This document shows, one piece after another, positions 1,380 to 35,638 of a DNA stretch of 35,638 bases. Position 1 is the stretch's first letter. Each line of letters starts with the position of its first letter. Position numbers and translations under genes: made by a program. A model generated the notes under the pieces. That model was not told where the DNA came from. It saw nothing but the letters and a program-made list of their open reading frames with translations, and ran no database searches. Where the stretch lies: assembly GCA_009786125.1 (NCBI GenBank), contig WQTU01000126.1, positions 1-35,638 on the forward strand. The letters run 5' to 3'. This DNA comes from Spirochaetota bacterium (GTDB taxonomy: Bacteria > Spirochaetota > Spirochaetia > CADAEX01).

Positions 1380-1750
1380 TATTATTCAAATATTATCCGG
1401 CGGAGCCCGCGCTGGCAAGGTGTCTATGCTTGCACATCCACTGAAGAAGTGAAAGCCGCTGGCATGCTTGCACGCACATGACCGAAAGACGAGGTGGACA
1501 AAGGGGCTATGCCCCTTGCGAACTGAGCGAGGAAGCAAACAAAAGGCAGCAAAGCTATACCTTATATTTCTAAACACCTGAGGAATTGCCGCTGCCTATC
1601 ATTTTAAAAAAGAGATAAATGCTATTCTTGATTTGATTTAAAAAATATGATACAAAAGATATTATATCACAGGACAAGCCCTGCCTCCACGCTATCGACG
1701 CGTATTCCGCAGACAAGCAGCAGGGTATTAATCCTTTTATTCCTAAAAAA
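1380..1750. repeat. degenerate palindromic repeat region (no gene)
   Basis: No convincing gene lies between the brnTA promoter and efp. 1380-1600 is a GC-richer island with short palindromes (GGGGC-TAT-GCCCC at about 1504, and GCATGCTTGCACGC near 1463). Words such as GCTTGCACGCACAT-ACCGA recur at 5268-5287, so this is a diverged copy of the nested repeat module seen there and inside the GNAT gene. Near 1690-1730 there is a second CCCTGC/GCAGGG pair. A minus-strand frame of 63 codons here has no protein-like features. Confidence 0.5.
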
Positions 1751-3475: not shown

Positions 3476-3533
3476 GCAAAGCGACCGCCAGACAGCTCTA
3501 CCCGCGGTTCTCGCTTCGTCGGCAAATAAGCTT
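3476..3533. repeat. palindromic repeat module R1, copy 1
   Basis: The stretch with GCAAAGCGACCGCCAGACAG followed by CGCGGTTCTCGCTTCGTCGG recurs at 29194-29250, inverted at 35428-35486, and degenerately at 8105-8182. This copy lies between nfeD and the stomatin-like gene and overlaps the 3' end of nfeD, supplying its stop codon and last residues (CRRSENRG). Confidence 0.8.
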
Positions 3534-5164: not shown

Positions 5165-5390
5165 TAAGAAATCACTGATTTATTCAATCGAGAATAAATT
5201 GCGCAGCATCCCGAACTTGTTCGGGGCTACAATACATTATTTCCGAATGAAGCGAGTGTAGCGGGCGTGCTTGCACGCACATTACCGAGCGAATAAGGAA
5301 ACGCAGCTTTGCTGCGGTATCATTTTTTCGCAGCCGGTGTTTTTTCGACCGAGCGCGGCTGCTTCGCAATGCCGCGCAATATATGACTAA
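5165..5390. repeat. composite nested palindromic repeat
   Basis: Modules in order: R2 (CTGATTTATTCAATCGAGAA at 5175-5194); a CCCGAA-CTTG-TTCGGG hairpin at 5211-5224; an X module at 5227-5301 with an internal GCGTGC-TT-GCACGC palindrome; CGCAGC-TTT-GCTGCG at 5302-5316; then R3 (TTTTTTCGCAGCCGGTG) and GCGCGGC palindromes to about 5381. The same order without the X module occurs at 18735-18840, so the X module looks inserted into R2-R3. Frames crossing this stretch are not protein-like. Confidence 0.75.
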
Positions 5391-29153: not shown

Positions 29154-29486
29154 CTAGATTTTATTTGGAAAGTGATTTTTCTGATAAATAAAAGGCGCAA
29201 AGCGACCGCCAGGCAGCTTACCCGAGGTTCTCGCTTCGTCGGTAAATAAAGATTCCGGATTATCTCTGGTTTCTTCTTCCGAAGGCATAAAAAGCTGAAA
29301 AATTTCAACTTTTAGAACATTTTCAAGTGTTTCCGCTGTTTTATCACTTACCCATGTCCGGCAATCTTCAATATCGCTAATTGTTTGCGCAGAGACTTGC
29401 AGCCTTAGCCAGTTTTTCTTGAGAAAACCCCATTTTTTTCTCAGAATTTTAATATTCAAGGCCAAAAGCTCTTTGGCGCGCATCAT
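29154..29486 (-). pseudogene. Xre-family helix-turn-helix regulator, altered by indels and a repeat
   Basis: About 110 residues. The frame reads MMRAKELLALNIKILRKKWG, then FLKKNWLR, then LQVSAQTISDIEDCRTWVSD, KTAETLENVLKVEIFQLFMP. Residues around FLKKNWLR are abnormal; reading one base shifted gives GFSQEKLAK, the normal HTH helix-2 sequence. A missing T after GGTTTT and an extra base before CTGCAAG would explain this. The C-terminal TDEARTSGKLPGGRFAPFIY is encoded by repeat R1. The DNA-binding helix is therefore probably damaged unless these are sequence errors. Start is taken at ATG 29486. A TGGTTATA/TATAACCA dyad upstream (29517-29560) could be its operator. Confidence 0.6.
29194..29250. 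repeat. palindromic repeat module R1, copy 2
   Basis: GGCGCAAAGCGACCGCCAGG followed by CAGCTTACCCGAGG and TTCTCGCTTCGTCGGTAAAT, nearly identical to 3476-3533. It lies inside the 3' end of the Xre reading frame. Confidence 0.85.
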
Positions 29487-29603
29487 TGACTCAATCAACT
29501 GCTACCCCTTAGTTATTGGTTATAAGTTACAATTTGGCAGTAGTGGGTTTTGTATAACCATTGGGTTTAGTACATATTTTTAGTTTTTGAGCTATAGCAA
29601 GCC

Positions 29604-33821: not shown

Positions 33822-34811
33822 ATGGCATGGGCATATCTAAAACTTTCACAGCTTGAAGAGCTCAAAAACCTTATTCAAATGCGGGAACACTGCTGCATGA
33901 ATTTCTCTGCCATATTCAGAAAGAAATATCTTAATTACTTTGCAGAGTCCGGCGCAACTAATGGGACCTATCAGTATGAATCAAAGGGTATGCTTCGCAA
34001 CCTTCTGTTTCCTCGCTTGCTCGGTCATGAACCCTCGCCCCATTCGGAAATAAAAAATATTGTAGTTCATCGCAGCGAGGAAGATAATTCCCTTGATTTT
34101 TCTTTTAAACTCACGGAAAACGGAAAGCTTTTGCCAATTTGCAGTAACAACATAACAAGTAAAGTTATCAATTTAGGCAAAGGGTTAGAGCTTTTTGGCA
34201 GCTCTCTATCTAAAGTAAATACTGTAATGGGAGACAAAAAATCTGTAAATAATATACTTAAAACTTGTTTTAGCAGCAAAAAAGCGTCCGAAGGAGATAA
34301 TTCCTTTTGTTATTACACAATGACGCTTGATAAAGCGCAGGGCGCGGCATCTGCGCTGCAGTATCTGCACCCACGCTTGCATGGGCTAAATATCAGACTG
34401 GCTGGTCAAAAAGATCTTGAAAATCTTATGCCTCTGCAAAAAAATTATGAAATTGAAGAAGTCCTGCCTCGTCCGGAAGTGTTTAATAAAGCTATATCCA
34501 AAAAGAATCTTACAATGGTGCTTAGAAACCAGATAACTGTGGTTGCAGAAAAAGCCGGAAAAATTGTAGCAAAAGCGAATACCAATGAAAAAGGGTTTGT
34601 CTACCACCAAATAGGCGGGGTTTATACGCTTCCTGAATATAGAAATAGCGGGATTTCAACAATTCTTGTAAGTTATCTTCTCGAAAATATTTTTTCCACT
34701 GGAATGAAAGCTTCTTTATTTGTTAAAACAAGTAATTCGGCAGCCTTAAAAGTATATGAAAAATTGGGGTTCAGTAAAAACGAGGAGTTTCAGATTACCT
34801 ACTTTAATTAG
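33822..34811 (+). CDS. GNAT-family N-acetyltransferase with N-terminal extension
   Basis: 329 residues. The C-terminal half (about 190-329) is a GNAT domain: LAGQKDLENLMPLQKNYEIE, VVAEKAGKIVAKANTNEKG, then VYHQIGGVYTLPEYRNSGIS with the acetyl-CoA loop R-xx-G-x-S (RNSGIS), and ALKVYEKLGFSKNEEF. The N-terminal half resembles the DUF4081-type extension sometimes seen in such proteins but is not firmly assigned. Residues about 63-81 (PRLLGHEPSPHSEIKNIV) are encoded by a palindromic repeat module. The substrate is unknown. It lies 4 bases after the GH3 gene and may be cotranscribed. Confidence 0.82.
   Translation: MAWAYLKLSQLEELKNLIQMREHCCMNFSAIFRKKYLNYFAESGATNGTYQYESKGMLRNLLFPRLLGHEPSPHSEIKNIVVHRSEEDNSLDFSFKLTENGKLLPICSNNITSKVINLGKGLELFGSSLSKVNTVMGDKKSVNNILKTCFSSKKASEGDNSFCYYTMTLDKAQGAASALQYLHPRLHGLNIRLAGQKDLENLMPLQKNYEIEEVLPRPEVFNKAISKKNLTMVLRNQITVVAEKAGKIVAKANTNEKGFVYHQIGGVYTLPEYRNSGISTILVSYLLENIFSTGMKASLFVKTSNSAALKVYEKLGFSKNEEFQITYFN
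34008..34065. repeat. X repeat module inside the GNAT coding sequence
   Basis: The stretch from TTTCCT to ATTGTAG aligns with the reverse complement of 5227-5301: TTTCCT, then GCTCGGT-ATG, then CATTCGGAAATA, then ATTGTAG are shared. The intergenic copy differs mainly by a 19-base insert containing a GCGTGC/GCACGC palindrome. Here the module is in frame with no stop. Confidence 0.75.
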
Positions 34812-35358: not shown

Positions 35359-35427
35359 GTTTGCGCAAGTATAACATATATTTTTATATATACAATAACA
35401 TATTTATAATTTTAAAATAATTTTGTT

Positions 35428-35638
35428 ATTTACCGACGAAGCGAGAACCGCGGACAAGCTGCCTGGCGGTCGCTTTGCGTACCTTTTATTAGGAACCCGC
35501 TGATTTATTCAATCGAGAATAAATCAGCATTACCTTGTTATCCTTTTTTCGCAGCCGGTGTTTTTTCGCGACATCCATGTCGCTACACCGAGCGCGGCGT
35601 CCATGCCGCAGTTTTCTGCAAGAAAACGAGAAAAAATA
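35428..35638. repeat. repeat cluster R1-R2-R3 at the right edge
   Basis: An inverted R1 (TACCGACGAAGCGAGAACCG to CGGTCGCTTTGCG, 35431-35479) is followed by a perfect R2 hairpin (GCTGATTTATTC, loop AATCGA, GAATAAATCAGC, 35499-35528). An R3 module then opens at about 35546 and ends with CGAGAAAAAATA at the window edge. Its interior is occupied by further palindromes (GCGACATCCATGTCGC, GCGGCGTCCATGCCGC). No gene is present after 35358. Confidence 0.8.

Follow-up and report, generated by a model that had tools for sequence, protein, structure and literature searches.

The DNA analysed here, hereafter the window, is a contig of 35,638 nucleotides (WQTU01000126.1) from a Spirochaetota assembly (GCA_009786125.1), and it encodes a GNAT acetyltransferase whose catalogued domain spans residues 235-317 and whose orthologues in three congeners share 61-66% identity with it. 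A variable linker joins the N-terminal region to the GNAT domain, and within this linker sits an in-frame copy of a repeat that recurs throughout the genome (Table 1). The preliminary description had placed the insert at 34008-34065, i.e. about 58 nt or 19 residues, while family boundaries in other copies indicate that it probably comprises the 23 residues listed in the table. The shared AA/ATAA leaves its breakpoints uncertain by a few bases, and with the flanks joined across the element the sequence reads in frame as E-S-K-N-I-V-V-H. The heptamer ATTGTAG (34056-34062) had been counted as a block of the repeat, but it supplies codons of the conserved I-V-V-H, which is present in element-free congeners as well (ATTATAGTTCAT), with ATTATAG at the same position; judged from this alignment, it is ancestral coding sequence outside the element. 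The gene also has a second lineage-specific addition of 5-6 residues at 34335-34380 (residues ~172-185, SALQYLHPRLHG), which was rejected as a repeat copy as it matches no repeat in the genome.

Table 1. Element copies, their parts and their host genes. Positions refer to the window or, elsewhere in the genome, to contig and position; the last column gives the stretch that congener orthologues lack at clean empty sites.
Feature	Position	Strand	Basis	Absent from congeners
GNAT acetyltransferase gene, 329 aa	33822-34811	+	ORF; Pfam Acetyltransf_1 E 3.4e-13; orthologues	
In-frame element copy, predicted extent 69 nt = 23 residues (K55-I77, KGMLRNLLFPRLLGHEPSPHSEI)	33985-34053	+	family boundaries, profile match	
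Presumed host target TCAA; most copies have ATAA	33981-33984	+	left 4-mers of 35 copies	
Left stem-loop (AAAGGGTA...AACCTTCT), degenerate in GNAT copy	33983-34006	+	pairing vs canonical copies	
Module A (GTTTCCTCGCTTGCTCGGTCAT)	34007-34028	+	3 mismatches to consensus	
Module B, invariant right end (CTCGCCCCATTCGGAAATAA)	34034-34053	+	2 mismatches to consensus	
Intergenic copy, modules A to B, in longer composite repeat	5237-5302	-	profile E 1.7e-20, 68 bits	
Weaker intergenic copy	1437-1505	-	profile E 2e-4	
Subfamily 2 right end (TTCTCGCTTCGTCGGCAAATAA), at 3' end of opposite-strand gene	3508-3529	+		
Subfamily 2 right end	29228-29249	+		
Subfamily 2 right end	35426-35447	-		
Host gene RecF	C84:10140		Pfam-supported name	105 nt (35 aa)
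Host gene M28-like membrane protein	C88:1575		no Pfam match; named by reading sequence	75 nt (25 aa)
Host gene HflX	C112:10852		Pfam-supported name	
Host gene FolC	C118:15462		Pfam-supported name	87 nt (29 aa)
Host gene HemW	C129:20295		Pfam-supported name	156 nt (52 aa)
Host gene RsmB/F-like methyltransferase	C132:37232		Pfam-supported name	48 nt (16 aa)
Host gene 253-aa Met_synt_B12-like protein	C136:61856		Pfam-supported name	126 nt (42 aa), in two of three orthologues
Host gene MutS2	C77:9053		named from sequence, outside Pfam scan	87 nt (29 aa)
Host gene outer-membrane beta-barrel (OMP)	C77:5159		Pfam-supported name	
Host gene phosphopantetheinyl transferase	C123:16870		Pfam-supported name	
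Host gene NeuB	C46:1765		Pfam-supported name	
Host gene GNAT	C126:34034 (in window)		Pfam-supported name	

A lineage-specific repeat family

The genome (2.42 Mb, 139 contigs, 99.2% complete) contains 75 matches to the right-end 20-mer CTCGCTTCATTCGGAAATAA at up to three mismatches, 30 of them exact, and none to the reversed pattern used as a control. One match, in a helicase gene (C138:54102), has no other feature of the element and was discarded as a chance three-mismatch hit, leaving about 74 true copies, so that the further copies anticipated earlier are indeed present. Left module A (GTTTCCTCATTCGCTCGGTCAT) was found in 38 copies, again with no match to its reversed control. The 20-mer matched 0, 0 and 1 times in the three congeners, a 25-mer version recovered 59 copies in the own genome and none among 394 other genomes of the class, and an exact 20-mer scan of viral contigs found nothing. 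Many copies are identical over the 20-mer, which implies recent spread, and these comparisons identify the family as a lineage-specific, recently spread repeat. The congeners are Spirochaetaceae MAGs of the Lab288 series, which we take to derive from termite-gut metagenomes; the host is an uncultured spirochaete, probably of the termite gut. Two intergenic copies lie in the window, and the stronger one corresponds to the reverse-complemented second copy that had been proposed at 5227-5301. It is embedded in a composite repeat (5176-5390) that occurs at least 11 times in versions 84-99% identical. A module GGTATTGTAGCCCCGAACAAGTTCGGGATGCTGCGC and a TTTATTCAATCGAGAATAAA unit come next, the latter also occurring near 35490.

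Aligned copies adjoin (A)TAA on their left and run through A-G/T-GGTA, a loop, TACCCTTTG, TTTCCTCATTCGCTCGGTCATG, an arm such as GTGCAAGCTCCGCTTGC and the CCGCGACTCTCGCTTCATTCGGAAATAA end, with a canonical length of about 70-130 nt. The ends are thus (A)TAA-AGGGTA on the left and, on the right, an always present CATTCGGAAATAA with the constant terminus AATAA. RNA folding predicts two adjacent stem-loops, AAAGGGTA/TACCCTTT on the left and TTGTTTCC/GGAAATAA on the right, with z-scores of -2.5 to -4.1 in three copies and of -1.4, -0.3 and +0.1 in three others including GNAT; with DNA parameters the structure is weak. The left stem still pairs where its sequence differs between copies (AAAGGATT/AATCCTTT in the RecF copy, AAAAGGTA/TACCTTTT), and 6-8 of its 8 bases pair in canonical copies, with compensatory variants. 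The family is therefore self-complementary in structure, as the preliminary description had it with the word palindromic, but this applies less to the GNAT copy, which lacks the central hairpin (~20 nt), pairs 5 of 8 bases in the left stem and folds no better than shuffles (z +0.13). A pattern search located the left end of 35 copies, and the 4-mer flanking it is ATAA in 27, ACAA in three, GTAA and TCAA in two each and CCAA in one. Since the right (A)TAA is constant while the left one varies, a target-site duplication is not demonstrable, and terminal inverted repeats are absent, the left AAAGGGTA and the right TCGGAAATAA not being mutual inverted repeats.

In-frame copies and a stop-bearing sister subfamily

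Open reading frames were called mechanically on both strands in the stretches around the 75 sites, and at least 12 copies turned out to lie in frame within convincing genes, including those for DNA repair and other core enzymes; Pfam backs 10 of the 12 gene names. This amounts to 12 of 74 copies inside genes (~16%), and bacterial DNA is mostly coding. Several further candidates were set aside: a PgsA-like gene (C118:10903) has its likely start codon and ribosome-binding site just after the element, the copy at C131:31995 is N-terminal and on the opposite strand, and the ORFs at C89, C90, C70, C94 and C139 look spurious. All 12 genic copies read the same element strand and 10 share one frame with the typical peptide DPLFPHSLGHERASTSRLSLHSEI, while those in HemW and the phosphopantetheinyl transferase use another frame and hence encode another peptide. 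In-frame insertions are translatable because two of the three forward frames of the element lack stops. The reverse strand is often open as well, and the orientation bias is only partly due to reverse-strand stops (residual p ~0.004-0.02).

Characteristic motifs of the host proteins are intact, namely Walker A in RecF and MutS2, CxxxCxxC in HemW and GSKGKG in FolC, and the MutS2 insert contains HERASTPRLSLHSEITK. Open frames and preserved motifs together suggest that translation of the insert adds a loop to proteins that are normal in other respects and would retain their function. A position in surface loops is likewise suggested by the alignments; the AlphaFold2 model of GNAT with its orthologues had a mean pLDDT of 33, too low for use. 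That all genic copies are in frame is partly built in, as they were recognised by their open frames, a bias of which the clean empty sites and the contrast between subfamilies are free.

The 30 noncoding copies with both ends called fall into length classes modulo 3 of 6, 15 and 9, i.e. 6 of 30 are multiples of three. When the flanks of noncoding copies were joined, no gene was clearly seen to be interrupted, and out-of-frame hits in genes have therefore apparently not survived. Furthermore, a sister subfamily (subfamily 2) ending in TTCTCGCTTCGTCGGTAAATAA (GTCGGTAAATAA) has 47 matches in the genome, and none of the 44 distinct sites examined lies inside a gene, compared to 12 of 74 for the main subfamily (p=0.0034). 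Its right end places a TAA in the chief frame of the main subfamily (gene-tolerant CAT TCG GAA ATA A vs gene-excluded CGT CGG TAA). Several copies of subfamily 2 are located near position 80 of contigs, and this repeat probably breaks the assembly. In the window, a helix-turn-helix-like ORF (29154-29498, minus strand) has a C-terminal tail, FTDEARTSGKLPGGRFAPF, that is read from a subfamily 2 copy.

These patterns bear on whether the element reaches the protein at all. If it were removed before or during translation, as an intron-like, bypassed or spliced segment, the proteins would be normal, in line with its structured nature and its presence in core genes where relatives have nothing. However, removal demands neither a stop-free frame nor a length of 3n, yet every genic copy found has both, noncoding copies are not restricted to 3n and the stop-bearing sisters never enter genes, which makes this explanation highly improbable. 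We judge it just as improbable that the element has been domesticated and the added peptide kept for a benefit to its hosts such as regulation, interaction or stability. The same peptide motif does recur in unrelated proteins, two of them of DNA metabolism (RecF, MutS2), and intragenic REPs elsewhere are also found in replication and repair genes (PMC3733652). Nevertheless, the element's own reading frame yields the peptide, whose recurrence therefore requires no selection, the host proteins are functionally unrelated, two copies give another peptide through another frame, and the GNAT copy is decaying. A different kind of adaptation, on the side of the element, is conceivable but doubtful: the gene-tolerant subfamily might have kept its stop-free frame in order to enter genes with little harm, a selfish translational camouflage. 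If true, this would have widened the usable target space of the element, which would be in frame not by luck.

The GNAT copy and empty sites in relatives

The GNAT copy is short, degenerate and without its central hairpin, and its linker varies among orthologues, all of which would fit an ordinary linker that resembles an intergenic repeat by chance. Still, 34000-34075 produced 53 BLAST matches in the own genome, in two halves that correspond to module A (34000-34030) and module B (34031-34061) of other copies, while 81 nt from another part of the gene, taken as a control, gave no match below E 0.59. A profile that excluded GNAT and was built from 31 copies located elsewhere recognised 34007-34053 with 20.7 bits (E 9.3e-6), as opposed to at most 9.1 bits when the gene was codon-shuffled 1000 times. 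Together with the 11 other genes that carry the element in frame, mostly in the same frame, this leaves chance with a very slim probability, and the resemblance noticed initially is real.

The residues are missing from the GNAT orthologues of all three congeners. Overall, the protein is 10-14 residues longer than these orthologues, but its linker exceeds those of two of the congeners by just 5-7 residues and differs by other indels too. Due to this further variation GNAT is not the cleanest case, and the clean insertion that had been expected from its alignment is instead seen in seven other genes. For this comparison, pieces of the host proteins were searched in the three congeners and then aligned. 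At the seven clean sites the congener orthologues align directly across and lack 16-52 residues (Table 1), whereas the linkers of HflX and NeuB, like that of GNAT, contain further indels; the OMP and the phosphopantetheinyl transferase have no counterpart among the congener sequences compared. Without the 87 nt that follow ATAA, MutS2 reads PERITKG against PEIIEKG in the orthologue, the methyltransferase orthologues still show the target GAAATAA, and in the solved RecF structure 5z67 residue 178 runs on to 179 where our protein has the insert. The case is therefore far stronger than it would be with the GNAT gene alone.

Two of these sites show additional details. The left flank in RecF (GAGTATAA) has one base more than the orthologues' GAAATAA, which may represent a compensating indel by which the frame was regained once the element had inserted. 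At the linker of the 253-aa protein, congener G003 has an unrelated in-frame tandem repeat (DDVVGNQ, 4-5 units), which suggests that this linker is an insertion-tolerant site.

Old, vertically inherited insertions that were lost in the congeners are the least probable explanation of all, as only the variable linkers of GNAT, NeuB and HflX could conceal such losses, while the clean sites are empty in all three congeners wherever an orthologue was available, the congeners are essentially without the family and the many identical 20-mers imply a recent spread. Mobility of the repeat, claimed at the outset, is hence supported in the sense of lineage-specific spread with empty sites in relatives, and not of observed transposition.

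Spread of the element and its known counterparts

Very probably, a short non-autonomous repeat confined to this lineage spread beside (A)TAA, and its open-frame genic copies are translated and tolerated as loops. The spread through the genome would have followed the split of the species from its closest sequenced relatives, with each insertion placed next to a host (A)TAA and with the same right end throughout. Insertions of 3n length with an open frame would then be translated as loops of 16-60 residues rich in S, R, H and L, and would survive where they landed in surface loops or linkers, while selection would have purged the remaining genic insertions. Copying presumably depended on an enzyme acting in trans. 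By Pfam, Y1_Tnp (PF01797; IS200/IS605, RAYT) is absent from this nearly complete genome although control genomes matched, which is compatible with a diverged or unassembled copy; the IS110 domain Transposase_20 is likewise absent by Pfam, and in the Y2_Tnp search no control genome matched.

The closest parallels are the Rickettsia palindromic elements (RPE-1 and others) and the Wolbachia WPEs, which enter ORFs in frame and encode an extra peptide (PMC2229807, PMC3767692, PMC10969869, PMC4224334). Compared by description and behaviour, the sequence search having covered the genomes of this class, they share with our element a short structured sequence, an open frame and occurrence both in intergenic regions and in frame in many unrelated genes. 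As befits an in-frame palindromic element, ours has about 74 copies, 12 of them in frame in unrelated genes, with empty sites in seven genes and, for RecF, also against 5z67. The analogy to RPEs drawn in the preliminary description is thereby strengthened by 11 more in-frame insertions. However, our element occurs in a different phylum, consists of two neighbouring stem-loops whose (A)TAA-side ends are fixed instead of a long stem-loop with terminal inverted repeats, and occurs, within the class searched, in a single species, whereas the members of a genus have RPEs in common at identical sites.

Similarities also exist to GTAG/CGTC REPs, small stem-loop units that are often doubled, lineage-specific and sometimes located in ORFs including DNA-repair genes, with intragenic cases in O. 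terrae, Thauera and Rickettsia conorii (PMC3733652). Yet the spirochaete element has the constant end AATAA and no GTAG or CGTC end tag, and its genome has no RAYT-type Y1 transposase by Pfam, in contrast to the RAYT-mobilised GTAG REPs; CGTC-type REPs likewise have no known transposase (PMC3733652). Bacterial MITEs (Correia/NEMIS, ERIC, RUP) are equally short, non-autonomous and high-copy, but our element differs by its missing terminal inverted repeats and by having no demonstrable target-site duplication. In Neisseria, too, an open-frame subfamily is found in ORFs, and its sister, which has stops in every frame, is almost exclusively intergenic (PMC2229807). We class the spirochaete element as a new family within a known kind; the phylum is new for this kind, and the anatomy differs. 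No spirochaete example of a translated repeat was found in the literature searched, the coverage of which was incomplete; this weak negative evidence is consistent with the initial view that such elements are undescribed in treponemes.

Translated selfish repeats have been reported as peculiar to the reduced genomes of intracellular Rickettsia and Wolbachia and to some REP-bearing species. What appears to be the same outcome is now seen in a spirochaete, where it was reached via an element of different anatomy. The genome of this spirochaete has 2.4 Mb, and its closest named relatives are presumably termite-gut MAGs. The spread is so recent that occupied sites can be compared directly with their empty counterparts in congeners. 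The insert-bearing and insert-free forms of RecF, MutS2, FolC and HemW thus offer ready pairs for studying the tolerance of proteins to added loops, and in the two subfamilies nature has set up a test of whether an open frame admits an element to genes.
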